From contig JAQGDQ010000081.1 of the NCBI GenBank assembly GCA_030141605.1, forward strand, positions 192,001 to 256,000: 64,000 bases of DNA, given 5' to 3'. Both the position numbers and the translations under genes were made by a program. This stretch comes from Tubiluchus corallicola. Taxonomy: Eukaryota > Priapulida > Priapulimorpha > Priapulimorphida > Tubiluchidae. The notes below the pieces were generated by a model. The model was given only the letters and a program-made list of their open reading frames with translations. It made no database searches and had not been told where the DNA came from. Shown one piece after another: positions 3,825 to 60,289 of the stretch; the first letter of the stretch is position 1; each line of letters starts with the position of its first letter.

Positions 3825-4248
3825 TGACATCTGTAATCCTGTTCTAGCTATTGCCCATCCAATGCCACAATGAACGAAATGGTTCAAATGAACATGATAA
3901 TGACGATGGCGACTGAATTATGTTTTTTGACTAGTAGCTTTGGTTACATGTGAAATTTAATGTTGCTTTTTATACAAGACTTCAGAATTGAACATTTTAT
4001 ACTATAAATACATAATTTCATTCCAGGTCAATACTTGTGCCTAGAACTGAATGAAAAAAGCATCAGACTTGGCAGTAATTTCAAGATTTTATTTCTAAAT
4101 AAATCAAAGGAATTTGCAACTGCATTATATATATATAAGTGATAATAAAATTTTATTGCCAGTAGGCCTAAATTGTCTTGCAGTCTACGTAAAGGCTAAT
4201 TACATTACTACTTAATTAAAATGTTTTTATAATTATTTCTTTTTCCAG

Positions 4249-4314
4249 ATAGCAGTTTGGATTGTTCTGGAATTTGATCTAGATATGTAACTGTAGATGT
4301 AGCTGATAAACAAA
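4249..4314 (+). promoter_or_regulatory. Probable 5' leader exon segment of the Josephin gene with two start-stop codons
   Basis: A polypyrimidine tract and CAG acceptor end at 4248, so the 66 bases before the start codon are probably the 3' part of a spliced leader exon. Two minimal upstream open frames lie here: ATG followed directly by TAA at 4285-4290, and ATG followed directly by TAG at 4297-4302. Such start-stop elements can stall initiating ribosomes and lower translation of the main frame. That the leader is transcribed is inferred from the acceptor-like sequence only. Confidence 0.5.
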
Positions 4315-6796
4315 ATGAATAAACCTAATCTAGTTAACAAGGAGGTATCTCACATTTACCACGAGAAGCAAGTCAAAGAGCTCTGCGCTCTTCATGCATT
4401 GAATAATTTATTTCAAGAAGAAAATGCATTTACAAAACAAATGCTAGATGACATCTGTCACAGGTACTTACATCGTTTTTCTTCCCTAAAGGCCTAAGGG
4501 GTTCGTAATTTTTGTATTTTCAGTTACGTGTTTTGTTTGAAGCTTTCCTGTTAAACGTATGGACAGGCATATCAAATTTACACTATAAATCTGTGAACGT
4601 TAACATTAATATACGATTTGTAGCTACTTTTATATGGACGACAATCCATGTGTGACTTCTGGTTGTTTATTTGTCCTTCTTTGTTAATCAATGCTAAAAG
4701 GCAACAGTGTATTTATTTATAATTATGCACCACATGCACAGTTGCTATGGTTTTTGTGTATATAATATGCATTTGCTTTATTTCAGCTTGTCTCCTGGGC
4801 ACTTAGTCAATCCGCACAAAAGTGTACTAGGCTTAGGAAACTATGACATAAATGTAATAATGGCAGCTTTAGAAATGAATGGTTGTGAAACTATATGGTT
4901 TGACAAACGGAGGTAAGTTGAAATAGTTTCACGTGTAGTTTTATGTGTATAAGTATATGTCTGTGTTATACGTTATTTGTACAAATACGGGTGATGCGTA
5001 ATAATGACAGCCTATGATCTGATTTGATTAATGGATGAAAGCAGAACTGAACACATAATTTTTCTCATTTCAGTCGAAATTCGGCTTCAGTTCAGATGTT
5101 TATACCTGTTGATGTTTTCCTATACATTTGTCCAGTTTAGCCATCTCAGATAGGTGGAAATGTGACCTCTAGTCCTCTTTGTATGCTGTAACCTTTCTGA
5201 TGTAATTAGGAATTTCATTCTACTGACTTAACATAATTGCATGTTCAGTGCTGATTCATCAGGAATTGTTTTCAAAAATTTGCCTGAGAGGAAATGTGTC
5301 ATCCCCAGCCATGAGACGAAAAATGTGTAAACCAGAAAAATCTAAAACCCAACTCCAAATTTTGATGATATATTATATTTTTCAGGTGAAGCTATAAGTA
5401 AATTATGCAAAATTACATAATTAAATGTAGGGCCTAAACCCCTCAAATTACTTAAGTGGCAAAATATGTCATACCTAACAATTAGCAATGCAAGAATGGA
5501 ATCAATGACTGATGATTGAGGAAATGTACAAAATTAGTTGTGGTGACACAAAATTCGTGAAATTGTCAAAAAATAGCTAAACAAACGTCTTTACTTCATA
5601 GTAAACTTGCTTTATAGTAATAAGTAGATGATACTTTGTATTAGAATAATCATGTCTATCACAATGAAGAGATACTTGGAATTCTTTCACAAAAACGTAT
5701 TACCTTTGACTTCTCCAAGAACCTACAGAAACAATAATACTAATTGGCGCAAAACATTAATTGGTTTAAAATCAAAATTAATTTTTCTAAAAACGTACAT
5801 GAAACGCAAGTCGTTATTATTTTAAATTATTTGTTTAGTGAGACGAAACAAGTCATTTGTAAAAGCAACTACATTTTGCATACTAATGTAGTATGCGCAT
5901 CTGAACACAATATATCTGTTTGCAGCAAAAATCACAGCTGTTTTTTGTTTCACAGAAGTGTTGACTGCTTGGTCTTTAGCAATATTCGAGGATTTATACT
6001 CAACATTCCAACTGACTACAAATGGGGTCTACTTAGTCTACCTTTAAAGCGTAAACACTGGATATGCATTCGACAAATAAATGACTTGTATTATAATCTT
6101 GACTCAAAGTTAGACGTTCCTGAGCTAATCGGCAGGGAAGATGATGTGAAAAAGTACTTGCAAGAGCAAATAGATGCAAAAGACAAGGAACTCATATTAG
6201 CTGTAGACAAAAGTGTTGGGCAGAGTAAAAGCTGGAGAATTCCAGATCCAGAATTTTCAACGCCTAAAAAAGGAATGAAGCATAATATATGCTGTACTCC
6301 GGATACACCTGTTAAACGATCTTTAGATAGAAATGGAAGAAGTTCGTTAACGTTGATGTCGACAAAGACATGTGCCCGAGTGAATTCCCCGCAGCGAAAA
6401 CCTAGAAGCGCAAGTTGTACACCAATAAAGACATCAGCTCAATTTAGAGGATCACCTTCTACTCCACAAAAGGTAAAACCTGGCGAAAAGTTCCATGGAA
6501 CACCACAAAGAGGCAGATCAAACAAAATTGAAAAATCGCCCTCAGCGGGTCAAAAGGTTAGAACTTGCCGGAGTAGCTCACCAGCAATAACTGATAAAAG
6601 ACAGTTTATCAAATCTGAAGCAGCATCACTAACACCAAAGAAATCACCACACTGTAATAGTGGAGTGAACAAAACCCCATTATGCGTAGAAAGACAAAGC
6701 TGTGAAAATGCAAATACTGCACATGTTGATGACCAACAAACTTTTAAAATACCGGTACATGGTGTAAGCAGTAGAGATAGGAGTAGTGCCAGTTAG
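4315..6796 (+). CDS. JOSD: Josephin-domain deubiquitinase (JOSD1/2-like) with long basic Ser/Thr-Pro tail; 3 exons
   Basis: Cysteine protease predicted to remove ubiquitin from proteins. Exons 4315-4463, 4787-4912 and 5956-6796 join in phase (149+126+841 nt) to give 371 residues. All junctions are GT-AG. The Josephin domain fills residues about 13-188. It opens with IYHEKQ and [10 protein letters not shown] (catalytic Cys24, oxyanion Gln19). It continues with [13 protein letters not shown] and closes with [10 protein letters not shown] (His126) and YYNLDSK (Asn139), so the triad is intact. Vertebrate JOSD1 and JOSD2 end just after this domain at about 190-200 residues. Here an extra 180 or so residues follow in the same exon, basic and Ser/Thr-rich, with 13 Ser/Thr-Pro pairs and no recognised fold. 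The start is the first ATG after the presumed leader acceptor and directly precedes the domain. The JOSD1-versus-JOSD2 assignment is unresolved: the match is mixed. The family call is very secure; the function of the tail is unknown. Confidence 0.93.
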
Positions 6797-9590: not shown

Positions 9591-10105
9591 ATGTGGAATT
9601 GGCTGGAGGGCGTGGGGTTTTCCCGATTTTTTTTTCGGCAAAAGTTTGCCCTTTTTGTGGTGAATTCTACGAACTCATTAATGGAAAACTTTACTGGCTT
9701 TAGCGCGTATGCAGGAATTGTTTTATCTTCCCAAGCTGCTGCAATCCCAATGATTTCGTCACGCTGCGTTACTTTTACTTTTCAGTCGTGCGAATGAACA
9801 TTGCGGTACACAGTAGTTTCTTCTCAATTCAAGGTTGCGTAGCATGTAGCTCTTATTCGAAATTTGCAACCGCCCGTACTGACTCACAATTTATTAATAT
9901 GAAACTACGTGTCTGTAGTGGCGAGCGATTTTGCTGGACAATGGACAATAACAAAAACGTTATACCGAATATTATTTCACAGGGCTTGCAGCCACTGTGA
10001 ATGAACGCAAACTACCAATGCGTAAGTGTTCTTATGCGTATTTAATTAACCTGATTTAGCTATTGCTTCATCTCAATAAGTTATTCAGTGGATGTTAAGT
10101 TAATC
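9591..10105 (+). promoter_or_regulatory. Candidate CACHD1 promoter / 5' leader region
   Basis: This stretch is richer in CpG than anything nearby, with roughly two dozen CpG pairs between 9600 and 10030. It carries an inverted CCAAT box (ATTGG, 9598-9602) and a KLF/Sp1-like GGGCGTGGGG (9608-9617). It lies directly upstream of the CACHD1 start codon at 10106. Two open frames inside it (9579-9797 and 9788-10000) show no domain and probably reflect the local base composition. The start of transcription is not determined. Confidence 0.4.
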
Positions 10106-11925
10106 ATGTCCTTATTGTTTGCTAAAAGGTTTTTTGATTTTGCCGCTTCGTGGCTGTATGTTTTATCTGAAAGATTCTTGTGGATTTTATATAAAAAAGA
10201 AGCGTGGAAATGTACGTTACTTTGCGTGGTGATGTTAATAACATCCGTATCACCTAGTCACTTCAACGAGGCAGGTCATTTGGATTTACAACAAGCGGAC
10301 GTTTTAGTCAAGAAATTAGAAGCAGATCTCATGAAAGTCTCTGATGATAGCCTAGCAGTAACAGCTATGCAGGTATACCACAATGTTAATTATTTTGTAA
10401 AGCAAATAATTGTAATGCAAACATTTTTGGTTACTCTCTTGCAGAGTGACCTATAAAGAGGTCTTTTTCATCGTGATGCTATTATTCTCATTCATGAAAT
10501 ACCTCTTGATTGCTTTTGGAATGGTTCTTTAAAGAAAAAAATAAAATTGGAAATTTAGATGTAAAAATTGAAGAATTGTGTGCCATATTGCCAACATAAC
10601 AGCGATGATGAAACCTGCAATGGATTTTGAAATATCTGTTTTTTGTGAGAAAGAATAAAACTTTATCATTCGGGAATTCGTCTGTAATTTTTGTTGTGTT
10701 AATAAAAATTGAACAAGGGTGTAAAATTTTCACTTTATCTAAAAAAATACAGTCAACCAAATAATATGAAATTTTATTAACATTAAATAAAAGTACTTTA
10801 CATTCAAGTATATCACGTTTTTTGCAGGATTACTTAAATTCTTTGGATTTCCAAGCACTAAATCTTAATGGCCCAGATGTGGTACACAAGGTCGGTATTG
10901 ATTTTTTCAAGAACTTATGACTTACTCAAATTGCTCTGAGTTTTCTATTGGTAACACTATTGTTTTTGTTAAAAAATGCAATAATAAGAAATGCTGCAGC
11001 TGAAGTGCAGCAGAGATCCTCATTACTGCACGTACAGTAGTTGCATTGATCTTTTAATAAGTCACTAGCAGAATGTCACATGTGCACTGCTTTGGAAAAA
11101 AGTGGGAGACTGTGAGAAATGTCCCAGTAGCTTTAACCACCTCTCTTCCAAATATCATTATTTTTTTATTTTGATATTTAGAGCAAAGATTCCTAATGTC
11201 TATTGAAGTATCTTTGTCAGTATGATTGAAATTTACTTGTTTCTTATTTTAACTTTTTTTATTTTTAGTTAGCGAATTCATTAAACAAGAAGTTTCAAGA
11301 AAAATTAGAAGCCCTCGAAAACTTAAAAGAAGCCATTGAGAAGTCATACAAACTTGATGCTGGCCTTGAGTTTGAAGCAGAAAATGTGCTTCCTCGATGT
11401 TGTGATTTGGACACTTCATACTTTGAGGAAGATCCTCGTTTTAAAACAAAGGTAATATTAAAGTATTAACAAATTCGCATGCAAGCAAATCATTTCATGC
11501 AGTTCACGATTCATCATGAATTTCTGATGTAATCAGGTTTTTATGCAGAAGTTTTAGTTTAGCATGTCTTTTGCATTTCTGCTTTGCAGAAACACATAAT
11601 ATATGCAATGTGCTCAGCTGTATGCAAATTAAATATTGTACATAACTTGAATAACATTACATGTGAAATACCCTTTAAATTAGATGGAGAACAGAGAGAT
11701 TCAAGAACAGTTTTCTCTCGTATGGTTTATTTAATTTCCAAACATAAGTTTAGATTCATTTTAATTATTTCGTTCATGTGTCTTGTAACAGTGTAACAGT
11801 GCGTATTGCTGTTTGTTTTACCTTGTTTATTCTTGTAAGAAATTTTATATTTTGTAACTTTATGCTGTGCTGTAAAGTAAAACCTTTTGGTTGTAATAAT
11901 GATAAATGAACTTATTATTACTTAC

Positions 11926-11962
<37 letters not shown>

Positions 11963-12813
11963 GTTGTTGTTGTTATTTTTATTATTTTTATTATTATTAC
12001 TTGTACAAATGTTTTAATAGTCATGGTTTTACTATAGGTTGATATGGAAACTGCTTGTATACAAGTATCTATAGATGGCCCTGATGATGTCAGATTAAAA
12101 CATTTACACAATGCAGTAATAGAACAAATGAAAAGTAACATTCATCGCATTCCTACGTTAAAATGGCAGTTTTATGGGGATGAGAATGGCATGTCAACAA
12201 CATATCCTGCCCATGCTGTTCCTTCTTGTGGAACATTTGATCCAAGATTCAGGTAAACCATATTGCGTAATCAACTTGCTATAATGATGTGGTTTTGTCA
12301 AGCTATTGTAATTCGCGATCACCCACAGTGTTAACAGCAGTGCCAGAACTTGCACAAGATGCCATCCACATATAATGATATAAGTTTTTGGCCAATGTCC
12401 AGGACCTAGCTTCATTGCATAATAATGGCATTATTGTATACTCCACCACCTACCTTCCCCTTATATAGATATCAGTATGAAACCGATGTAGCTTTTTGTA
12501 CATTATTTTATTCTTTATCCTCCCAAAGACAGGCAACAACATCACTTGTGTTAATTAACAGGAAACCATCAGTGGATTCTACTGGCATCAGTGGTCGAGA
12601 TAGTGGCTGACTGACAGCCGCAATTCACTGAACTCATTCTCATCGACCCATTCAGAAAACGAAAATGAAGTCAGATAACGATATCATGACTAAATAACCT
12701 ATCTATCTTGTGCTATCATGGCGTTATCACGTCTCCTGCCACCTACCTACCCTAAACTTCATATCGTTATATGTGGATGGCCCTCAAATATCAATTATAC
12801 AATATTTCAACTT

Positions 12814-12893
<80 letters not shown>

Positions 12894-14262
12894 CTTTATT
12901 TAAAGTTGGCTTTTGGGTGGACAATTAACATTAGCTCAAAGAGCTTTTATCGCTGACTGTAAATAACAACCTACAACTACATAACAGTGACTATTATTAC
13001 CCGATTTGTACCCTAAATACCACGTCCCAGGCAGGGCAACAGCAGGTACCATTTTTAAAGTCTTTGATATCGGCTGCTGTATCGAACTCACAACCTCCCA
13101 AACCAAAAGCGGACATGTTACCACAAGGCTAAACAGTTGTCATCCGTTTTCAGGCCATGGTATGTGACCGCTCTGACTCCAGAACCTAAGGATGTTGTTG
13201 TTGTCATTGATTCGTCAGGTTCAATGAGGACTCAACATGCTGGAAAGCCCCTCATGAAATTGGCGAAATTTGCTGCATCAACTGTTCTTGGAAGCCTCGG
13301 TCAATCTGACAGGGTATTATGAGTTATAAAACACTTTTCTCTCGAGTTTGATTGACCATTAACTTTAAAGAATAAGTTTCCAGTTGTTTACCAAACTCAA
13401 CTTAAGTTGGCTTTTTAATATGTCACAGAAAAAGTGTTAAACAATTGTAGCACAAGTAGTAATATGTTTACAATTTAGCAATATTGTTTTGAACTACAAA
13501 GTAGACTTGTTATACACATTAACTGCAATGTACTTTAATGTGCATTACGCTACTATGAATATGATTAAATTCTATGCTAGATGAAAACAGTGTTTATAAC
13601 TAAAAATTTAGTGCTGAAAACGTAGTGCTAAAATTTCATCTAATTATCTGTACAATTCAAAAATTCTCTGCCTGGGAAATGATGAGCTGCCACAGATGAA
13701 ATGAGTTTGTCATTTTAGGCACAAATGTTTCAATACATTTTTATATAAATTTTTGTTTAACTTTGATTTTAAAACTTTTGAGAAGTGCTACAAAGTCGTG
13801 CTAATTGCATCATATGTATAAATTTTGTTCAAGGTTGGGTTTGTTGCATTCTCCACTACTGCACGGGTTCCAGTTGGTACTCATGCAGCCACTTCTTGTT
13901 ATGGAAGGGAACTAGCATTGGCTACACAAGCAAACATTGGATTTCTGAACTCATATATAGAGTCACTGGTACCTCATGGGACAACTTATTATACAAGTGC
14001 ATTGGAGAAAGCTTTCAGTTTGTTAAACAATTCAAACCTTGAAGAAGATTTTATAAGAGGTATTTCAAATGTTCCTGCACCATTTTTAATTTACTTGCAT
14101 TGCCTCTGATTGAATTAAATAGGTTTCTGTGTGCACAATGCTCACATGACCCCAGTTCTTATTTTATATGTGAAATTATGAATAATGCATTCTATTTGTC
14201 TGGTTCTTTTCCTTTGTCTCTCTTTCTGTTGCCCGGGCATCTCTCAACTCTCCTCTCCTCTC

Positions 14263-14352
<90 letters not shown>

Positions 14353-17300
14353 CCTCCATCCCTCGATTGAGAATTGCGAAAGAAAATCAAATCAATCAAT
14401 TTTTATTGATTACCTGTAAATTTGTATTGGAAAGTTATGCATGATGTCACAAAAGAGCATTGCAGTAAAATTACGTCAGAACAATGGTGTCATCTTTACT
14501 GCAGCTGTCTGAGTTCTGCTCAATGCCTTCCTATTTATCTTTTTGTTTGTCACTTTACAGGAACAATGCATGTTTTAAACATGTAGTAATATTTTGCTTA
14601 CAGAAAAAGTCATTCTTTTTCTTACCGATGGCCTTCCCACAGACTCTGCTAAACAGATTATGACGACACTGTTTGACTTGAACAAGCAGCTGGATAATCA
14701 GGTTATTTTGGTGACGTATGGACTTGGTGAAGCAGGTTAGTTCATATTATTTTGATTATACATAGTGCTTTATTGTGAAGTTTATTTATAACTTTTCCAT
14801 GGAACATAGTAAATGATAACGTACTGTTACAATAATTTATTTACCTTAATGGGAACTAAATGCTACTAAAATGAGATTGTAGCTTTAAAACTGTTTGTAA
14901 AAAATCAAATGCATTGACAACAATCACATTAAGTATTATTCACTCCATTATTCACTAAATGGTTTATTTATTATGCTATCTCATTTACTTATAAGATACT
15001 ATATTCTAATTATTCTCATCAGAATTTTACTTAGTTTGTCCTTTCCGATTTTTGTTATGTATTGTTTAGAACAGTTGAAGTGTCGGTTTATACTTCTGCA
15101 CACGTTTAGTTTTAACAGCATGTTTTCAATGCAGCAAAATCCCATGGTGCAGCAATATTGACTAGCATGGCATTACAAAATGGTGAAAGATATGGAGCAT
15201 CGCCTCCAGAGAATGACATTAAACCTGGGAAGTTCGTGTCAATCAGCAATCCAGATGATTTACGAAAAGCAATGGGCTTGTATTATCAGCTGTTTATTAG
15301 TAACACTGCACAGTCATTTCTGCCAAGACTCTCTGCACCGTATGTTGATGTGAATGGATTAGGTTGGTATAATTATTTTTATTAACAGGCAAGATTTATT
15401 TTTGCATGTTAGCATCTCTTAAATTTTAATCATTTGCATCTGATTTGTGGTCTTGATGATGACAATCTGAATGTAATTATTTATTCTGTATTATTTTATT
15501 AGTATAGCAATAACATTGTGATATTTGTGGCCCGGCGTTTTTGATTTGCAGCTTGATAGCATCATTAGGCCGAGGTGAAGTAAGTGAGTTTTGTCTAAAA
15601 CATTGTTTTTGGCACAGGTGATGTGTAAGCCATTTTCAGCAGCCTAGGATGAAAACCCATCTTTAGTAATAGCTAATAGGGGGAGCAAGGGGAGCAACCG
15701 CTCCCCCAATCACATTTTTCAATATTGTTGCCTTTTTAACTGCCTTATTACTTTATTTGAGTAATCTGCCTCTCGTGTTTTTAAAATTAGCGTGCATTTA
15801 CACAACTGATTTGTCAAGGTTGACTGAATGAACAAAGGATCAAATTGTCCAATATTGAATTATTGTAATATATTCTTGTCACACGCTGATACCGTCTTTT
15901 GTGAAATAGGCAGACATATAATAGATTCATGTGTCACAGCGCCTTTCTTATGTGCTTTCTCCCTGTAACTGTAGTAGCTGACTACGCCCCTGATCCTAAG
16001 ATATATGTCTGCCATGCCATGTATGAATAAATATAAATAAATAATAGCTAAATAAATATAATAATATGTGTATTTAGTTTTATTGCTTTTTATTTAATCA
16101 TAAATGTAATTTTCTATTTATTTAGGAACTTTAGATGGTCAATCAATTGTGATTAATGCTCAGATGTGTAACTATAAAAATATAAAACTTAATATTGTTA
16201 TACATATCATTTTTGCTGAGGCCTAAAAGCTTGCAAGAAAACAATCCATGTTTATCATAAACTTAAAAGTGTTTATCTAATAAACATTTTAACCTAAAGG
16301 AAGAACATGCACACACATTTAGGAAACTATATGATGGGATTTTATTTTTGATTAAGCTGCAATTCCCAAGCAGTAAAAGTTTGTTTGCATGGTCTTTGAA
16401 ATTTGGTTATTTAAACGTGTGCATATGTGGGCTTTGTTTAGTGGCAAAATTCTAAATTTAAGAACCAATTGACAAAAATCTTTATTTAGGTGTCGTAACA
16501 ACATTATCTGTGCCTGTCATGTTTAGAGGAAAGGCAAGAGGTGTGGTGGGTGTTGACCTAAGTCTTAGTGAGCTACTCTCCGATGTTGTTTTCTTTCCAA
16601 GAGGAGTTTTGTCTTACCCATTTATAATAGACAGTCGGGGTTATGCTGTATTGCACCCATTGTTACCAAGGTATGTTATCTAGTCATTTGGTTTTTAATA
16701 GCCTGAAGGTGCCGGTAGTTGTGTCTGTGCCTCTGATGCGCTTAGTTACGATCATTGTGAGGGCTTTGTTATCCTTCCCCGTGCTCTATTTAGGCAGCAT
16801 TACTCATCCGCTTGGTGAAATGGCTTTGTTATCTGCTTAAATTTGTGTTCCATTTTTTTGCTTCTGTTAGTTTTGATGAGTTCTTGGATAGCTCAACATT
16901 GTAAGTTTGCATTTTTATAAACAGTAGCAAAGGTGTTTGATAATAATTACTTAAAATTTAATCGTGCTTGTTTATGCACTGCCTTCAATCCTGTGTGTAA
17001 TCTTTATAACTAAAATTCAATGCCATTTATACAGATTTTTTTACAAAATTTGTTATTATTTACAAAAATAAACAGCATAGTACAATTCAGTACATCATTC
17101 AGGTGTATGAGTTTGGTTTATGAAGAGAAATACTACACTGGCAGCTTGAGCATTCATATTTGTAGTTTTCAAAATTCATTTTCTTACTCTTTTCATATTT
17201 CCTTGTTGAATTTCAATTTTTTTTGTTTAATAACAAATGATGTGATTGTCATTACTTATTTGTGTTTTTCTATCATCCATTGTTTTATAGTACTGTAGTT

Positions 17301-20300
17301 ACATTTACACATCTGACTGTGACCTGTATTTAGGGATGAATAAGAACATGATAATAATACATTCTTTTATGTTAAGTAACATACTTCTTGTTGGGTGGCG
17401 AGTTTTTTTCTTTTTCCACTGACCTGCTTTGCTGTTTTGCATATACATGTATTTCAATTTATTTTGCAATATAAGATGACTAGTTCACAATCAGTATTAA
17501 GTAAACTTTTTACAAATTCAGCAATTATTCTAAAACTTACAAACTTTCCCACAGCCTCGTTGTTATAATAAGAACTGATTGTTTGGATGACTGCTTGTCT
17601 ACACAATTACTGACATTTCTAGCTTCACATACGTTTTATCGTATGCAGTTTTTATCATTATACTTATCTTCTGAATATCTGCTTATTACTTGTTTTTAAA
17701 ATTTGTGAAACTGACTGCTACAAGGATGAGCATTATAAGCTATGTTAAACGTTCAAGTTGATTGAGTTTTTTTCTAATATGTTTAATAAAATTATGTATA
17801 ACATGTATCAAGAAAATTATGTATCTATCCATTATATATTTCTATTCCATGTATGATTATGAATGCCCAAATTACTCTGTTTTGTCCTTTCTTTTCGTTA
17901 AGATTGATATTTTGTATCTTTATCAGTGGTAAATTTGTGATTAATAGTTTACTTTGTTTAAATTGCTTAAGTTATGTAATTGTGATTAAAAATTAGTGCA
18001 CATTTTTGTTATTCTGCTATTGTAAATTTTGTGTACTGTCATAATTATATTGATTCATCAGAAATTTTCCTCCTAAGCTAGGTGAAAACTGTTTTCATTA
18101 ACTTTTTTAAATGAATGAATGAGTACGAAATAATTATGGCCTTTTATCAAGCTAAGAAATCTTACATGTTTGCAGTGCCGCTTGTAATTTAGCACACCAT
18201 GGTATTATTTTCAGTCCTATAGGTGCATATGATTCACCAATTTATGTTGACATTATCGAGTTCGAACGTGATCCTCGGTTTTTAAAAGTTCGGGATAAGA
18301 TGTTGCAAGGTACATCTGGCTCTCACTCAGTCCTTGCATCTAACGTGAAATCGCTTGGAGAAACATTGCTTGAAGGTGTCTCAATTGCATCGTTTCCAGC
18401 TACATTTCACTGGGCACCGGTATGTGAAATTACGTTTTCGAGTACATAGCATTAGTTTCATCTAAGACTAATAACCACAGAACTACATTATTTCATTTAG
18501 AAAGTTTTTCTTAAATATACTTGTGCCACTAAATTGATTCGTGTACAGTAGGCGCCGCTTAATAGATTCCAGACCTGCTAACTCTCATGCATTAGGCGTG
18601 TGTAGAGCCGTTACAACATCCTACGATGCCTTAGGCTGGTAGTTCAGTCCCTTCCATCTCTATAGTGAATTTATAGTTGTTTATGTAATGACAATTACTT
18701 GTGGTGTTTTTGAAAAACTATTAACGTAGTTTCTACCTGGTCATTAATTAATTACATGTATTTGCATTATGCTTATATCTAAATAGGCTGCGCAATTGTT
18801 TGTTGTGTATTACCTTGCACCTGTTCGTTATGTGGCATTTATATAAAAGCTGAGCTCAGTAACTGCCTGTGGTGTGTTATAAAATGTGCCTTTTACATGA
18901 ATATGAAAGTATACGCATTTTCAGAGGAGAATTTTTTCTGAAATGTGATGCCCTTCAAACTTTGGCACCCTAGGCTATAGCCTAGTTAGCCTATTGATTA
19001 ATATGCCTTTGGGCTGGTGTTACATTTTAAGTCTTTTTAATGGCATTTTAAGTCTCTCACATGTGCACAGGCATCAAATTTCAGTTCTCAGGTATTCCAC
19101 AGCTTCACAGGCAAGTTTGCAAATCACCTGGCTTGAATGACTTCCTTTGCCACCAGTAGGCCTACTTACCACAACATAATTAGTTGTACTGTTCTCAAAA
19201 ATACAGTAGTGTTCGTGAGTATCTCGATGTATATTACACTAAAGTGGATTACAGTTATTGAACATAATTATTTATATATAAAGAATGGTGAACTCCAAAA
19301 CAGCATAAAAAAGCTCGACTGGTACCAAAAAAATTACCTTGTATTTTTTTGTTTTTTGTCTCAATTTTTTAATAATTTGATTTTGATACCAAAAAACAGC
19401 AAAACTTTCTGGGGCATAATTTGTTTCCATGTTTCACACTCATTTTCAGTTCATGTGATTGGCAACTCTGAGACTCACTTTGGGATGGAAGTGTTTTGAC
19501 TCAATTAACCTACTGAATTTATTAGCATTTGGTGTGGCATTACAAATATGAAAGTACAAGTCATCAGTTTTTAGCTTAGTTTGCACTGCAAAGGCTGGGA
19601 GAGCTGATAAATGCAAATAGTTTCACTTATGCTTCATTTTTCAAAATTAATTCTATGCTTTTAGCTGCTGTATGATGTTTATGTTTTCGAAACTCACAAA
19701 GAATACTGTTGGAATTACTGTTAAAGAATCGGTGGCATAACAGCAACACTCAAACTGATTAAACAATAAACATTGTGTAAAAAGCATCAAACACTTAAAA
19801 AGTTTAACTTCCATAAATTACTGGGCAGTGACTAGCGAGGTTAATTACAGTAAATGAGTGGATGACAGATTCAAATTAAAAACACTATGCTAGCATATTA
19901 GAGCACGACAAACAAACCTGTTTACAAAAACGGTACTTTACATGATTATTTCTAGTTTCTATCTATGTTAATGTGCACAAAAGCAATGTAAAAAGGAACA
20001 TAAAAGTAGCAAAAGTTCTCCACATGCCTTATTTTAAGTGGTAAAACAAAAAATATGAGGAATTATTTGAGTCAATTGCTGACAGTTTTTACACACATTT
20101 AAATAGGAGCAACCCATACCGGAGACTTTTGAGTCAACTAGGCGACTGGCTTTATTAACTGTGAGTCTAATAAGCGGCGCCAAACTGTGCCTTAATTGAC
20201 ATAAATGTTGTTTATGACTCTCTGTGTCCATGTTCATATTTATCTCCATGTGTCCTTCTGTAGCATAGGAGGCTGTGTGAGATTGTGTTTACAAGGTATT

Positions 20301-23300
20301 AGTTTAATGAATTGTTTCAAGATTGCAGACATTGGATATTCCGTGTGTTTAGTGGTTGCGACAGCTGATACCAATTTTGTTTTACCTCATCTGACACATC
20401 AAAATCCTGTTTTCTTGTATCATCGACTAGACCTGTTGCCTAATGAGCTTGAAGATATTGGTTGCCACTATTATAACAGAGTTGCAACTAAAGGTAGGCA
20501 TTTAAACTCGTGTTTAAACCATCCAATGTAGTTCATTGAGCTACTGTACGAGATTTAAATATTTTAAAGTACCTTTCAAATTAAAAGAAAATCTTAGCTG
20601 TATTATCTTAGTTTTATTTACGTTGTGCAACAGTTTGAATATCATTGTTTCTATGATCTATATGTTTGCTTTTGCTTGTCTTTCACAAAATGTAACGGTT
20701 ATAAATTTATATGCAGACAAATCAACAGTTAAGTTTGCAGCCAGCGCATTTACTGATGAGTTTAGTTACCTGGAAGCACCTGAGAAGGAAGCTGTTATTC
20801 GTCGTTACACACATTACATGAATGATAAAACGGGTCTTGTCCAAAATCCTGGTTTTAAGGTATCTGCATAAAGTACGAATATGTGCATGTTTTTTATTTT
20901 TTTCACTACTTATCTGCATGTTAGTAATTACTATCACAGACAAAATGAATGCTTATTGGTAATGGGAAAGTGAATCATTAAAATAAAAATAACACCCAGC
21001 ATTCTTAAACAAAGACAGCATTTATTCAGACATGTTGTGTCTGAATAAAAGCTATGTCTTTACTTAAGTAGGTTGTGCCTGTCATTTTTATTTTAAGAAA
21101 TTCTTAATTGGTTTCCTTCATACACTTATGGGCCACTATTATTCTGAAGATAACCAAAATCACCTTAGATGTTTTTTGTTGTCCCTGTTACTTTTTTGTT
21201 AAATTCAATATTTGGGCTAATGTATTTCTTCCAGAATTGTAGCCCAAATGCTGAAGCCCTGAGTCCAAGTCCCAGTAAAGTTTCTAGAGTTTGTTGTTTC
21301 CTTGTTTTGCCCTATTGGAACGATATCTTAAATACAAATATAATGAATTATAATGCACTGTTTGCACAGTAGGGCTGTGTAGACGCCATTTATTAAACTC
21401 AAGGTTAAACAATGCATGTGTGAACAGTGAATCTGTCACCATCTTGTCCACTGCAATTAACTATTAACTTTGTTGTTTCTCTAAGCTAAACTTAATCAGT
21501 TGCTTAGCGGTTTGCTTTTGAAGCTCCCGTTGCTTTTCACAGGGGCACCATCATCAGGTTTCACAGATCATCACCATACCAGCTCAAGCACATCAAGCAT
21601 GAGGTGTTTTGCATCAATATGTGCAGCATACAGCAACAGATTTACAATGTTTTTATCAGCATGAGAATTTTGTAAACCAGTTTCTTCGTGATGAAATGAA
21701 GCAACAGATCTTGCATAAATTTTCACAATTTTTAGTGTAAATAAACAGATTTGTGCAATTTTTTATTTTATTTTATATTTCACTTATACAAATTTGTATT
21801 CGTAAATAATTGCAACATATTGTTAAGTAACTGGATATAGGAATTTTAACATTATTTCATTTCTAAAATTCATTTAAAGCCCTTGAAGTGCATGCTAAGC
21901 TGATGAGTGATGACCTATACTTCTATATTCCGTCGGATAATAGATTCAGTGGGTTAATTGGATTTAAACACTCCAAAAGTGAGTCTATTAGGCAGTGCCT
22001 ACTGTGTTTGATAAAACATGATTTGTTCATTATTTTTATTTCATATGATTATAAATTAAATCTTTTTTAATTGTAGGATGGAGTACGTGATGAAGTCATA
22101 TTCACTTCTAAAGTTAATGATTATTGGACTGCTTCTGAAGCTTTTTCTGCCAAAATTGCTTGGAGATACATTGGCACATACAAGGGAGTATTTAGAATTC
22201 TTCCTGGCGTTGTGTTAGACAAGCCCTATGACCCTGTCATTCGACCATGGTATGTGTTATGTTTCTTTGCTACATGTCATAGCAGACATGCCAACACTCA
22301 CACATTAAGCGTGTGTCACATGCATTTTAAATATTTCACATGCATCAAAGTTCACTTCTCAGGTATTCCAAACTTCACGCAAATTTGCAAATCAGCTGGC
22401 TTCTTTTGCTGTCAGTTGTATGAACCCCAACACAATTAGTAGTACTACTGTTAATCATACAGTAGTGTTTATGAGTCGCACAATGTGTATTACAATAAAA
22501 GGTATTACAGTTATTGAAAATTAACCTCTTTTGCGTGCTATTGAGCTTTTTTCATGTGTACAAAACAACATATTTATATATAAAATACAGTAAACAGCAA
22601 TAGCAGCATAAGAAAGTTCACTAATGTGCAACAATTACACTAACTTTTTCTTTAATTTTTTAATAAATAATAATAATAATTATAAAATATGAGCATATGT
22701 AATTATTATGTATACTTACTATATTATAATTGACTTACCTTACTTCAAAATTAAGATTTCTTGAGTTGCAAGTGCAAGTAGTAAGTAAATATGTCAAATT
22801 AATATGGTTGGGACGAGGTACCAGGAAGCCATGTGTCGATGGAGCACTGAAGTGGACCTAAATTGCTTAGCTGGCTGAACACTATAATTAAAAAGAATTA
22901 TGTGTTTGGAATACTCTCCTGTAAATTTATTTAATAATAAATTCAGAAATTCAGTCTTGGACAAATTTTTCCTGCATGTTAAATCAAACTGACAAATTAG
23001 CACATGTTTTTGTAAAGTTTTTTTAGTAGCACCTCTTTTAGATGCACCAATAAAATTTTGAACTAAATATGGCATTCGTGCCTGGTGGCTTTCTCCCTTC
23101 CTAAAACATTGGCTAATCATATTTATTTGTAAGATTTTATTGTATATGTGCAATTGTATATTTGGATTGAATAAATCTAATCTAAATTAAACACAATAAC
23201 ATTTTGATCATAATTAAGTTATGCATTTCCAGACAACAGGGTACTGATTTTGTGCTGTAAATTCATGGAATTGATGTTGAATGGAAGTTTGTAAAGTTTC

Positions 23301-26300
23301 TGACAATTTGTTTTTTTATAGGTTTAAACGTTCAGTTAGTCGTCCTGAGAAACTGACTATTTCGACACCTTATGAGGATGCAAATGGAGCCGGATACGTT
23401 ATAACACTAAGCAAAGCCTTAAAACAGGTTACAGTTATGTTTATTATATTGGCTGCAATTCTAGACAAATGAAAATAAGAAAACGTTTATTCTATGCTCC
23501 ATGTCATTGTTATTATGTATATAAACAAATTAAAGAAGCTGACTAAAACTAAACTTAATGTTAAGTTAAAATGTGTGACATGAGATCCTTAATGTTTACA
23601 GTTGCTTCATTAGTTTTGTAGGTTCATACAAATATTGATTTCTGGTAAAGTAATTGTGACAACTAGTCTAGAACGCAAAACATTGAGTTACTCACTTACC
23701 GCATGCGTGCACTGCACACACATGTGCATTCTGCTAGCATGCATTTGTAAAATGTACAAATTTTAGTAACATGCACTACACAACTGCCTGAACACATCAT
23801 TTAGAACACCATTAACTGTTGTCATGGAATATATTTTTTCATGAAAGTTAAGGATATTCATTGTTTGCATTATGATAAGTAAGAGTAAGCGAATAACAAG
23901 TTTTGTTTATATGAGTAACAATAACAATATTAGGACAACGAGAACAGTATTACGATAAAACAAGCTTCTTTGTAGAGTTACTTTGCACATGACTAACATA
24001 AAAACATTAAGCTTCTTTGTTATTTGTTGTTTTTGGCAAATTTTAGGAACTAATTTTGTAGCACTAAATGCAAAAACAGCTTCTTGCAAAGTTACCTTGA
24101 AGGCATGTGTCAAGCTAGAGTTTTTGCAGATACAGTAGTTGCTTTTTTGCTAAATGCTAAACGGTGTTTTCACTTACCCTGTGTACTTGTAGAGTAAAGG
24201 GAGACATGGTGGAATATTAGCTGTAATGGGTGCTGATTATACACTAGCTAACTTCTTTGAACACGTCTTCAAAGGAATCTGCGAAGTGCAAACAGGCAGT
24301 GATATCAGGTACTTCGTCTTGATTTTCTGAATGGCAGTTTGTGATTTTGTATAAAGTATACAATTTTTCAGTAATATATTGCCACTACATTCAGAAATAT
24401 AATTTTTGTGATAATAAATCGTTTTCTTAATTGATAATAATTATATTTTTCTTTAAACAGTTGTTTTGTAGTAGATGATAGTGGATTTCTCGTGGCTCAT
24501 CCCGATTTCTGGAATGAAAAAACTGGTTGCAGTGCAGCTGTTGAAAATGTCCATATTACAGGAAAAGTAAAAACATTTGGTTTTACCATAATGTTAAAAA
24601 TGTTGTTAATCTGTTTCAATATGTATTTGTTGCAAACTTTAATAGCAGTATGTATAGTTTAACTAGTTTAATATGATTTAGTAAACATATTGATCTAATA
24701 ATGATGATGGTGATGATGACAATGATGGTAACAATGATAATGATTACCATTATGATGATTGTAATAATGATGACAACGATAAAAATAGTGGTAAAGATAT
24801 AAACTAAAACTTTTATTTTTTTAGGTAAATCTGTTTCCCATTACATATGAGCTGATAAAGAAAGGATACCTAAAGAGGGAAGCCTGTACAAACTTTCAAA
24901 CTTTTAGCTATCAGTATTATTGGAGGGTAATCTTATCGGTTTTCTTACCTAAGATCTAAGTCATTGTACCATAATTAAGCATGGGTTTAACCCGCAAATC
25001 TCAATAACTTGTCAATTTGCCATGTTTTATAATAGCACATTAAATAAACCACATTGTACACATAGGCTGTACAATGTGTACATCATGTTTGGAACAATGA
25101 GTCCCAATGCCAGTGATTTTTATCTTAAATTGTCAGAAATTCACCAAATTTAACTCTTCGTAAAAGTAGTGTGATTAATTGTTTCCAAAAACCTATACTG
25201 GAAGGAGATCAATTTGATTGATAACTGTTACTGTGAAATTGTGAACCATGCATGCCTGTTGTAGTGAAATAGTGTGAACAGTGAATCCCTATCATAGTGA
25301 AATAGTGTGAATGATGTTTGTGAACCATGCAGCGCTATCACAGTGAAGTAGTGTGAACCGTGCATCACTATCGTACTGAAGTTGTGTGAACCATGAATCA
25401 CTATTGTACTGACGGAGTGTGAACCATGTACAATTATCATAGTGAAGTAGTGTGAACTATGCATCCCTGTTATAGTGAAGTAGTGGGAACCATGCACCCC
25501 TGTTGTAGTGAAGTAGTGTGAACCATGCAGCACTATTACAGTGAAGTAGTGTCACTGTGCACCCCTGCCATAGTATAGCAATGTGAAATGTGCATCCTAT
25601 TTGTAGTGAAGTAGTGTATATTACAGTTCCTCTATATTCAGTAACACATGAATTAATAGAATTTACTCATTTTAGTATAATTATTATAGATGAAGTTTTA
25701 TTAAAGTTTTTAAGTTGTAAATTAGAATCAGCAGTCGCCTTGTCTCTGTATCGCATCGAACAGTAATTCGATCACCGTTTTTGCTAACTTCACTAGATTT
25801 TGAACAATATTTTTGTCTGGGGATCAGCAAAAGCATTGTCCTGTGTCAAATTTCAAAATAATTTATTGGTTTAACGTATATCATAATCACATTAGTTTTG
25901 AAATACAATACATAGTCAGTAAAGTAAAAAAATAATTATGTGAACTGTTATTAAAAAAGATAATGAAGGGAGACTTAAGAAGCCATGGCTTATGGCAGGT
26001 CACCCATAAGTGTTTTTAATAACAATGCTGGTAAAAGATTAATATGGTGTTTGTACATGGAGATTGCAGTCTGAAAGTTATTTATATCCACAAGGCACAA
26101 TTATTTTGTGCTTTGAAAAGGGGCATCGTGTGGTCAGTATATCCTGAAAATGTTATTGCTCTAACTGCTTTTTTCTGTAATATTTCAATTTTTTCTAATC
26201 TAGATGTATATGTACTACCCCACGCTACATTTGAGTAACTTAAGTATAGGAGTATTAGCAAACAGTATAGTAAAGGAAGTACATTGGAAGAAAGAGCATC

Positions 26301-29300
26301 TCGTACCCTATATATAATACTCAAGTGTTTTTTAAATTTTTTAAATGTTCTTTCCACATTAAGTGTGCATCTTTGCTTGTGCCAAGGAATTAGTATGTGT
26401 AACCTGTTTTATAGCCGAACCCTCTACAGACATGTATTTTGGGGACTTGTATGATTATAATTATAATGAAACACATATATTTTCAGTACTCAGTTATTCT
26501 GTTTTGTTTGAGATCGCATCATCAACAGTTCTATGATGACTTGTTTACCATGTTTAATTTTACTGTGCGCCATGTTACTTTACCAATCACCTGTTTTGAT
26601 TAACTCTTTACCATTGTATAGCATTTTGTGGTTCCTTCTAATTATGCTGAAAAGATGTTTTGGTTTTTGAAGTCAGTTACTTCAATGTGTGCCGCATTTT
26701 TACACAAACATTTTTTTTTATTTTGCCAGTTGTATATTCATAAAGCAGTGCAGTTAGAGACGGACTGCTTTAGCTCCTATTTCCAACCTGTTCATAATAC
26801 AAATGTTTACATAGCTGTTGTTTTGTGGAAACACTCAGATGGATGCTTGCCTCAAACTTCTTGCTCAGCATGTGATTTGCAGCAGACAGTGAGTAAATCT
26901 GCTAGAACCATAATTTTCAATATATAGACTGGTACTAACTGCTACATGCTTCATTACTTGTTTGGCAAAAGTACAGATAATCTCTGATGGTATATAAAGA
27001 CAGCTTGTTTCTTTATCATATTATAGCGTACGTTATACATTGCACATTAGTTAAATTTTACGTCCACTATTGGTCGTTTCTATGAGTGAAAGTCTAGTTT
27101 TATTTGTACATTTTGCTTCTTGGCATTATTATCATTAATTATGATTTTCTTTGCCTTTAAACAAAGATTTAATTGAACTAAAATGATTTAGTATAGACAT
27201 ACTAACATAAATAAAACGCATCTGATGACCAGTCCCACAAGAAATGTCAAATATCATCATTAAATTAAATGTTTAGCACCTTTTTAAGTCACCTTTTTAG
27301 CTGTTTTTATTCATGTTAAATTGTTTTTATTCATGTTAAAACTAAGTTTTAATTTGTTTATATTTTGTCATTTAGCCGAAGTGCAATTATACTGAGTTGG
27401 ATGCTTGTGAATGTCCTTGTGTAAGTCCTACTCGGTACAAGTACTGTGAAGATGATTTCGTTTTATTAAGGTGTGTATAGTTTGTCGAGAAATTTGCTTT
27501 ATTCAGCCTTTAAACAGACAGCAATTATCTTTTATAATTAGAGATATATCAAAAGGTTAGGCAGTCAGATTAACCATGTCTGGGCCTTACCAATGTGATT
27601 TAAAGAAGCCAGACAAATTTTTACATAGGAGTAGCAGCCCCTACCCTTCCCCTCATAAATGTACAGGACTAGTTTTTGAAAAAAAACACCTGAAACACTT
27701 GGTCAGAACTGATTCTATACCAGAGCTACTATTAATTGGTTTACTAAAAATTTTCTCATTAGTCGATAAGTTATTTCTTTTTAATAATAATTCACTGCGA
27801 ATAAAACTCTAAACAGTGTATGCGAGAGCCAGTTTTAATGTTTGTGGGTAATTACGCCTAATTAGTTTTTAAGGCTATACTGCAACATTCCATGAGAGTC
27901 ATGAAGTCAATTTACAGAACTACAAGGGTTTATAAAGCTCTGTTGCAAAAAAGTATTTCTCTGCAATAATTTACCCTCATTTTAGCCTCATTGTGTCACT
28001 GCTTGAATTTTAAGTTTTCTTCCAGTGGAAGTCATCTTCAGGTTGGCTTGTGAAGGACTACCCACCTTCACTTCAGAATTGTAGGTGAATTAGTAATTCA
28101 TAGGCATAAAGTGGAAACATTACTTTTTGATATTTCTCAAGCGTAAATATTCCTGTAAAGAGTTTCCAATCTTAAAGGGAGATTAATGTTTTTGTTAATG
28201 TTAAATCATTTGTGAAATGCTTTTTTAAATTACAATCCCACTGAATTAAAGTAATGCTGCTTTATTAACATCTAGCGAAACACAGGCCTATATTGTTTCA
28301 GATTTTTAACAGTTTGTGTTATTTTAGTGATGATTGGCCAACGTGCGTCCCAGATCCGCCCACGTATCAGACGGGATTTGAAGGAATGCAAGTTGATCAT
28401 TTGAGGGAGTGTTTCCCTTCGTTATGTTACAGCTACATGACTGAATTAGACTGCATCTCATTTGGTTGTGAATGGTTATGTGATATTGGCACTTGTGTTG
28501 CTGCTGATACATGTAGGCCTAGATACTCCTGTAAGCATTTATATAAAAATGTATTCCTATTTGTCATAAGCGATAGTTATGCATTAAACAGGTTTCTCAT
28601 ATAATATATTATATTATAACCATTTTAGCAATTACCTGTTATTTTTTTTTATTAAGAACGCTTACTGCCTAACATATATAATAGGTTGAGAATGATTACT
28701 ATTTGCTTGCAGTAGTCACACCAGTTCTATATTAACAAAGCCAGACTTAAACATAGTCTTATGAACTGTAATGGTTTCGTATTAAGCAAACAAATTTTTT
28801 GTGTAGGTTCTAGTCAGTCAAGCTCAAGCAAAAGTAAGTAAATTATGTAACTGTTAATTTTACACTGATATTAAATGACTATCATAATTTCTCTTTTAGT
28901 GTATACAGTGGCAGTCCGATAATTGTATAGTGGTTTAGTTAATTTAAAAAAGCTCATTACAAAACAAAATTGAAAATTATAGTGAACACATGTAGTTTTC
29001 TAATGCACATGATGAGGAAAATTAACAAAACGTATCATCACATTGAAACTTTTAATTTTGTTTAGATTTAAAGCTGGCGTATATTGGTTTTCCTATTGTC
29101 GTCGTTGCTGTCTTAGCAATAACTATTGCAATCGTCGTTAAATGGAAGGGTCGATCAAAAGAGGCAGCGCAAAATCTAGCAAATGAACAGCAGACTGCGA
29201 TATCTGTGATGTATTCCAATGAATCAAACCAACAGTATGATAATCGTGCAGTGGATTTTTTACACGAGTCTGACAATGTGCGACACACTTCTCTGCAACC

Positions 29301-29358
29301 TCCCATTTATGACTCCAAAACTTATGACTGGTTAAGGCCCCCTCCTTATGCACCTTGA
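10106..29358 (+). CDS. CACHD1: CACHD1-like VWA and Cache domain membrane protein; 22 exons
   Basis: Single-pass cell-surface protein related to the alpha-2/delta subunits of voltage-gated calcium channels; vertebrate CACHD1 modulates channels and Wnt receptors. The joined exons encode 1184 residues (human about 1274). Residues about 30-48 form an N-terminal signal or anchor. The VWA domain begins near residue 243 ([20 protein letters not shown]), with MIDAS residues Asp262, Ser264 and Ser266 and a later LFLTDG loop (Asp380). Two Cache-type regions follow (about 425-620 and 680-900). [10 protein letters not shown] and [11 protein letters not shown]-like segments align with human CACHD1. A Cys-rich segment has the CACHD1-type ACECPC stretch (about 990) and a second Cys cluster to 1075. 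A membrane helix (about 1091-1112) and a 70-residue cytoplasmic tail with PPIY and PPPY complete it. The start is the first ATG in exon 1; the frame is open a little upstream through a GTG only. The CACHD1-type Cys region argues against a true alpha-2/delta. Confidence 0.93.
11926..11999. repeat. (TTA)n microsatellite with TTG interruptions
   Basis: About 70 bases of ATT/TTA trinucleotides with a short TTG run in the middle, in CACHD1 intron 3. Confidence 0.9.
12361..12781. mobile_element. MITE copy 1, family shared with 31755-32150
   Basis: A 421-base block in CACHD1 intron 4 starts with GCCATCCACATATAATGATA and ends with the near-exact reverse complement (TATCGTTATATGTGGATGGC). This gives terminal inverted repeats of about 24 bases. 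It has no coding capacity. A second copy in the same orientation at 31755-32150 shares most of its length, including ACATCACTTGTGTTA, CCATCAGTGGATTCTACTGG and AGATAACGATATCATGACTA. The two copies plus the terminal repeats make this a non-autonomous DNA element. A target-site duplication is not clear. Confidence 0.8.
12819..12893. repeat. (TAA)n microsatellite
   Basis: About 25 uninterrupted TAA units lie 40 bases after the right end of the MITE in CACHD1 intron 4. They create false open frames reading poly-Ile or poly-Asn. Confidence 0.95.
14262..14348. repeat. (CT)n microsatellite
   Basis: About 40 CT dinucleotides in CACHD1 intron 6. They produce false Ser-Leu open frames at 14100-14444 and 14185-14370. 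Confidence 0.95.
18546..20187. mobile_element. Candidate 1.64-kb DNA transposon remnant with CAGT...GGCGCCGCTTA terminal inverted repeats
   Basis: The left end reads CAGTAGGCGCCGCTTAATAG and is preceded by TA. The reverse complement of the right end reads CAGTTTGGCGCCGCTTATTA. About 20 bases are therefore inverted-repeat matched, with a small indel, and both ends lie inside CACHD1 intron 10. The CAGT terminus next to TA resembles pogo/Tigger-type elements, but the right flank is TG rather than TA. No transposase frame is visible inside. It contains a copy of another dispersed repeat (about 19050-19320), so it may be a nest. Confidence 0.6.
19050..19320. repeat. Dispersed repeat, copy A (pairs with 22284-22640)
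   Basis: In intron 10 this block shares with intron 13 a run of matching segments. These include TTCTCAGGTATTCCA, AATTTGCAAATCA-like sequence, CTGGCTT, ACAGTAGTGTT and ATTACAGTTATTGAA, then ATTTATATATAAA. A further match to the start of copy B (CTCATGCATTAGGCGTGTGT-like) lies at about 18572-18604, so copy A seems to hold about 440 extra bases. No coding potential. Confidence 0.7.
22284..22640. repeat. Dispersed repeat, copy B
   Basis: Direct-orientation relative of the block at 18572-19320, located in CACHD1 intron 13. It starts near ACACTCACACATTAAGCGTG and runs through the same ordered segments to a stretch with AGCATAAGAAAGTTC. It has no frame of its own. The open frame at 22212-22439 simply runs from exon 13 through the splice donor into it. 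Confidence 0.7.
24702..24786. repeat. Imperfect (GAT/AAT)n trinucleotide repeat
   Basis: Interrupted GATGAT and AATGAT units in CACHD1 intron 16, without coding meaning. Confidence 0.8.
25232..25625. repeat. 33-bp minisatellite, about 12 copies
   Basis: Tandem units approximate GTGAAGTAGTGTGAACCATG followed by CA(G/T)C(A/C)CTATTATA, 33 bases each, with substitutions between units. The third unit carries a 13-base insertion. It lies in CACHD1 intron 17. Because 33 is a multiple of three, the minus strand stays open for 101 codons with a His-Gly-Ser-His-Tyr-Phe periodicity. This is a repeat artefact and not a protein. Confidence 0.9.
25985..26357 (-). mobile_element. Non-LTR retrotransposon (LINE) fragment, C-terminal reverse transcriptase region
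   Basis: The minus strand at 26357-26082 is open and reads [20 protein letters not shown], then [19 protein letters not shown] and PLFK. This is the characteristic thumb region of CR1/L2/jockey-type polymerases. After a frameshift it continues as [20 protein letters not shown] and ends near 25985. The fragment is 5'-truncated, as is usual for LINE insertions, and sits antisense in CACHD1 intron 17. It is distinct in sequence from the copy at 2395-2995. Confidence 0.8.

Positions 29359-33590: not shown

Positions 33591-60289
<26,699 letters not shown>

Follow-up and report, generated by a model that had tools for sequence, protein, structure and literature searches.

Introduction

Can a deubiquitinase of the Josephin family carry a cell cycle switch within its own sequence? 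This question is raised by a gene of the priapulid Tubiluchus corallicola, which lies on the forward strand at 4315-6796 of a 64-kb stretch of DNA (contig JAQGDQ010000081.1 of assembly GCA_030141605.1, positions 192,001 to 256,000; here, the window). The regulation of most members of this family is described as poorly understood (PMC7479174). According to the original prediction, made from the window sequence, the gene encodes a Josephin deubiquitinase followed by a tail full of proline-directed kinase sites, i.e., serine or threonine followed by proline (S/T-P), several of which match the full motif of cyclin-dependent kinases (CDKs), [S/T]-P-x-[K/R] (PMC10562473); the tail was also thought to resemble the DNA- or chromatin-binding tails of histones. 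Overall, our analysis bears out a JOSD-type deubiquitinase with a basic tail rich in CDK sites and adds a paralogue whose tail shares these features, while the resemblance to histones turned out to be weak.

Results

A JOSD-type gene with a long 3' extension of its last exon

The gene has three exons separated by GT-AG introns, which together form a single frame of 371 residues. The coding part of exon 1 (4315-4463, +), delimited by its open frame, the GT donor, and the alignment with Josephin-2, encodes residues 1-49 and two bases of codon 50, including the catalytic Cys24. Exon 2 (4787-4912, +), supported by its open frame and the Josephin-2 alignment, encodes the middle of the Josephin domain, and exon 3 (5956-6796, +) encodes the remainder of the domain with His126 and Asp141, the tail, and the TAG stop codon at 6794-6796. 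The splice position and phase of exon 1, as well as both intron positions, are common to a second JOSD gene on another contig (C665; described below).

The 371-residue product matches the Pfam family Josephin (PF02099) with an E-value of 7.1e-27 and 94.6 bits (cut-off, 26 bits). In a search of solved structures, it matched human Josephin-2 (6pgv; E-value 3e-52, residues 13-186) and, much more weakly, ataxin-3 (E-value 2.9e-7). The protein is 47% identical to the JOSD2 catalytic domain, and its Cys24, His126, and Asp141 align with C24, H125, and D140 of JOSD2 (numbering as in PMC7337049); the third residue of the triad is Asp and not Asn. Ubiquitin-interacting motifs (UIMs) and polyglutamine of the ataxin-3 type are absent, as there is no second Pfam match at an E-value of 1 and no polyglutamine in the 371-residue sequence. 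Searching viral contigs with this sequence returned no relatives, and with an alignment as the query, none of the 73 pattern matches in viral contigs and 100 in bacterial and archaeal genomes was confirmed, as expected of an animal gene. Judged by its sequence, the window gene is an animal JOSD1/JOSD2-type Josephin deubiquitinase. An account covering 1,823 sequences from 747 species describes Josephins as having the Josephin domain as the only domain present (PMC10050893). Because of the 185 extra residues (58 in the paralogue), we class the gene as JOSD by descent rather than as a Josephin-only protein.

The similarity to Josephin-2 stops at residue 186 (...SW), and exon 3 goes on for 185 codons. 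This agrees with the predictions that the domain is complete by about residue 188 and that a tail of about 180 residues follows in the same exon. Position 6230, given as the start in the prediction, corresponds to Ser184; the tail itself begins with residue 187 at 6239.

The tail is an open extension of the domain frame

The tail (residues 187-371; 6239-6793, +) begins with IPDPEF (6239-6256, +), which belongs to a junction, W[K/R]xPDP[D/E], that is common to the paralogue. None of the 185 tail codons is a stop codon, while the other five frames of the same DNA contain 12, 21, 12, 2, and 9. At the stop frequency of the window, the chance of an open run of this length is ~2e-6, and in second-order Markov simulations, 0/5,000 sequences derived from the window and 0/5,000 derived from the tail DNA stayed open. 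The GC content of the tail (0.41) is nearer to that of the domain (0.37) than to that of the 1,900 bases downstream (0.31). The tail matches no Pfam family at an E-value of 1. We also considered that it might be an internal tandem duplication; this was ruled out by finding no direct repeat family in it.

The tail is basic and enriched in full CDK sites

With a net charge of +21 and a pI of 10.3, the tail is as strongly basic as predicted, and it contains no Trp or Tyr. The original prediction had also suggested checking the tail for disorder; based on the charge-hydropathy line, the tail falls on the disordered side and the domain on the ordered side. In a structure model of exon 3, almost no regular structure was assigned to the tail (pLDDT about 30-39); because the underlying alignment had two rows (exon 3 of both genes) and the model was poor overall (mean pLDDT 39.4), it adds weak support for disorder.

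The 13 predicted S/T-P pairs are all present in the tail, as are the seven full-consensus sites named in the prediction, which lie at residues 194, 209, 236, 247, 261, 274, and 318. Shuffled tails contained, on average, 4.2 pairs and 0.76 full sites, and none of the 20,000 shuffles reached either observed count. When the 13 pairs were held intact, the seven full sites still exceeded the mean of 2.5 (p 0.0045). As a further comparison, we used 184 other frames in the 64-kb window, read from stop to stop and at least 60 codons long. Per 185 residues, these average 0.80 pairs and 0.06 full sites, with at most one full site in any frame; since most of these frames are probably not genes, the rates are a background for DNA rather than for real disordered proteins. 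If stops are ignored, 185-codon stretches outside the tail that start at such a site have at most two full sites.

Other short motifs were scanned for in the tail and the domain using simple patterns. The variant S/T-P-[K/R]-[K/R] accounts for 2/13 tail sites, both TPKK (shuffle p 0.007). A simple basic-cluster pattern matched in the domain only and not in the tail, and no KEN box was detected in the tail. The tail also has one match each to RxxL, which is destruction-box-like (residue 220; ~6345-6362), and to a SUMO-like pattern (residue 310; ~6608-6619). These two single matches, as well as a single [K/R]xL match in the protein, are expected by chance.

A paralogue has a shorter tail of similar character

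The 343.5-Mb assembly was searched for Josephin and the best six candidates were scored. Among the matches listed, there were seven exon matches on three contigs, representing one ATXN3-type and two JOSD-type genes. The exon at 4179-4346 (-) of a sequence from contig C464 matches ataxin-3 with an E-value of 9e-26 versus 0.3 for Josephin-2; by this comparison of one exon, C464 holds a separate ataxin-3 gene.

The second JOSD gene comprises exons at 114800-115056, 127434-127565, and 154827-155277 of C665, separated by two introns, one of ~12 kb and one of ~27 kb. It encodes 279 residues as modelled, including, with the start as modelled, an N-terminal extension of ~36 residues that the window gene lacks, and it matches Josephin with an E-value of 2.2e-26 and human Josephin-2 at 49% over 164 columns. 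Over 182 domain codons, the two genes are 65% identical with a dN of 0.27 and saturated synonymous sites, arguing that they are an old duplicate pair and not alleles. In protostomes and in invertebrate deuterostomes, a single JOSD gene is the general rule (PMC10050893). Just within intron 1 of the paralogue (~115300-115500), there is a long microsatellite-like repeat that translates as HNIT.

The tail of the paralogue is 58 residues long and has a net charge of +11. All three of its S/T-P pairs are full S/T-P-x-K/R sites, a full-site count that is exceeded or equaled rarely in shuffles (p 0.004) and also when the three pairs are taken as given (p 0.04). At the junction, 3/8 residues after the Trp are identical in the two genes (anchored shuffle p 0.011). 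On this one sequence comparison, it seems that the character of the tail, i.e., its charge and site density, has been retained between the paralogues more than its sequence, as would be expected of a disordered region in which these two properties, and not the exact sequence, are what is maintained. According to the original prediction, orthologues in close relatives that end after the Josephin domain would have spoken against the tail. The only relative seen continues for 58 residues, and it bears on this point as a paralogue, not as an orthologue.

Other features of the window

Scans of the 64-kb window for Rfam families (gathering threshold) and tRNAs gave no matches, and neither did a search of the assembly for mitochondrial COX1. 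A series of exon-like frames extends over 10055-29355 (+). One of them, 13068-13319, matches VWA_2 with an E-value of 2e-4, which is below the Pfam cut-off, and weakly matches the solved CACHD1 structure (E-value 0.11); most other frames tried in this interval had no Pfam match. We take the series to resemble a CACHD1-type protein (VWA plus cache). Coiled-coil frames at 33594-36786 (-) presumably resemble the C-terminal part of RABGAP1; of two that were tried, one matched generic coiled-coil families below the cut-off, and the other matched nothing. Finally, an open frame at 26085-26408 (-), without a Pfam match at an E-value of 0.1, is presumably similar to the C-terminus of the reverse transcriptase encoded by non-LTR retrotransposons.

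Discussion

We put forward, stopping a little short of calling it probable, that the tail of the window protein is disordered and basic, that CDKs phosphorylate it at multiple sites, and that this re-targets or releases the JOSD enzyme at mitosis. As expected from the sequence of a CDK substrate, its S/T-P-x-K/R sites lie in a region that is disordered by composition, and most of the dynamic phosphosites of the cell cycle are reported to be targeted by CDKs and to occur in highly disordered proteins (PMC10562473). Cell cycle control of a deubiquitinase of this kind is plausible: USP37 and USP15 are deubiquitinases that are phosphorylated by CDKs (PMC8224227). Moreover, in one siRNA study, depletion of JOSD2 caused multipolar spindles (PMC11850729), which may hint at a mitotic role of the family.

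In this proposal, we infer the expression and phosphorylation of the tail, the kinase, the bound surface, and the effect. The catalytic half is predicted to cleave ubiquitin from substrates. It may prefer ubiquitin that is ester-linked to Ser or Thr as do human JOSD1, an efficient esterase of this type, and JOSD2, which is selective but works less efficiently (PMC7848729). The unphosphorylated tail, with its charge of +21, would tether the enzyme to a partner or to a polyanionic surface such as microtubules, membrane, or chromatin. By charge arithmetic, phosphorylation by a CDK at the seven full sites would lower this charge to about +7 and phosphorylation of all 13 S/T-P pairs to about -5. 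The drop in charge at mitosis might then release or re-target the enzyme in the way that CDK1 re-targets USP16.

Several observations weigh against CDK control. Basic residues are equally common at positions +6 and +3 of the S/T-P pairs (7/13 each; best-offset p 0.033), and the sole match to the [K/R]xL cyclin-docking pattern, at residue 169, lies in the domain and not in the tail. In the paralogue, the tail is short, its three S/T-P pairs are in themselves an ordinary number (shuffle p 0.15), and it would remain positive once phosphorylated (+11 to +5). Past the junction, the best local alignment of the two tails is no better than that of shuffles (p 0.435). Also, in the JOSD2 depletion study, both readouts changed with only one of the siRNAs, and JOSD2 was not followed up (PMC11850729).

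How well do explanations without a mitotic switch account for the tail? It could be a basic segment that constitutively anchors the enzyme to microtubules, membrane, or nucleic acid and in which the S/T-P-x-K/R sites are a by-product of a composition rich in Pro, Ser, Thr, and Lys, as in microtubule-associated or histone-like tails. The charge and pI of the tail and its two TPKK motifs would fit an anchor, as would the reported association of human JOSD1 with the cytoskeleton or membrane (PMC7479174, PMC8224227). However, the full sites exceed the expectation from composition even with the 13 pairs given, and the DNA-binding motif is SP(K/R)(K/R) (PMC9903204), while the two tail sites that fit [S/T]-P-(K/R)-(K/R) both have Thr. 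We consider a pure anchor rather unlikely. The same proline-directed sites could alternatively be used by another kinase, such as a mitogen-activated protein kinase (MAPK), CDK5, or GSK3, and connect the enzyme with signalling instead of division. Six of the 13 S/T-P sites have no basic residue at +3, and ataxin-3 is reportedly a target of GSK3-beta at Ser256. MAP kinases recognize the same minimal S/T-P site (PMC10562473). With 7/13 sites of the full CDK type in the window tail and 3/3 in that of the paralogue, we regard another kinase as unlikely.

The difference in length between the two tails, which is threefold, together with their failure to align past the junction, would fit a loosely constrained disordered extension that was gained when an old stop codon was lost and has drifted without a specific function. 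Yet, the tail of either gene is basic and carries an excess of full CDK sites, and the junction is still common to the two genes despite the saturated synonymous divergence of their domains, so that drift appears unlikely as well. That splicing inside exon 3 removes part or all of the tail from the main protein is very improbable. Two donor-like sites, AAG/GTAAAA after 6472 and AAG/GTTAGA after 6556, score 7/9 in a simple nine-position count and thereby equal the exon 1 donor; however, 3.7% of the 3,637 GT dinucleotides scored in the window reach 7/9, and two such candidates in exon 3 are, therefore, not remarkable. Moreover, the frame is open across the whole tail, and use of the donor after 6472 would leave five of the seven full sites in place.

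If the proposal of a CDK-controlled tail is correct, a JOSD enzyme whose own tail carries multiple CDK sites would couple non-lysine deubiquitination to the cell cycle. A more elaborate version, in which the window protein is a cell-cycle-switched Ser/Thr ubiquitin esterase with a phospho-switchable tether to the spindle or chromatin, and in which paralogues with different numbers of sites respond at different CDK thresholds, is attractive but, in our judgment, quite unlikely. Among the papers listed in literature searches, no title concerned a JOSD protein with a CDK-site tail; such tails may, nevertheless, be widespread among predicted proteomes without having been remarked on. The window protein would provide a ready test protein and its short-tailed paralogue an internal comparison.

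Comparison with known systems

The window protein is like human JOSD2 and JOSD1 in its catalytic domain and Cys-His-Asp triad (PMC7337049). However, these human proteins are little more than the catalytic domain (PMC7848729), while the window protein continues for 185 residues with 13 S/T-P pairs. In layout, it resembles ataxin-3, in which the Josephin domain is followed by a disordered C-terminal half of a length similar to that of the window tail (PMC7337049). In contrast to the window protein, ataxin-3 has UIMs and polyglutamine in its tail and Asn in its triad.

The SPKK tails of sperm histone H2B are likewise basic with P-K-K motifs, and phosphorylation of SPKK inhibits their binding to DNA; however, hydrozoan spH2Bs have five to seven SPKK motifs (PMC9903204), while in the window tail, only two of 13 sites are of this type and both are TPKK. 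Of the predicted likeness to histone tails, the two TPKK motifs remain; with the basic clusters confined to the domain and no histone match in Pfam for the 371-residue product, we regard this likeness as weak.

A parallel for the regulation that we propose is USP16, a deubiquitinase with the USP fold, which is unrelated to Josephin. In USP16, CDK sites lie in a disordered region, and CDK1 sets the location of the enzyme in mitosis (PMC10047310). USP16 differs from the window protein in having one major site, Ser552, in a disordered insertion (PMC10047310), whereas the window protein has many sites in a C-terminal tail.
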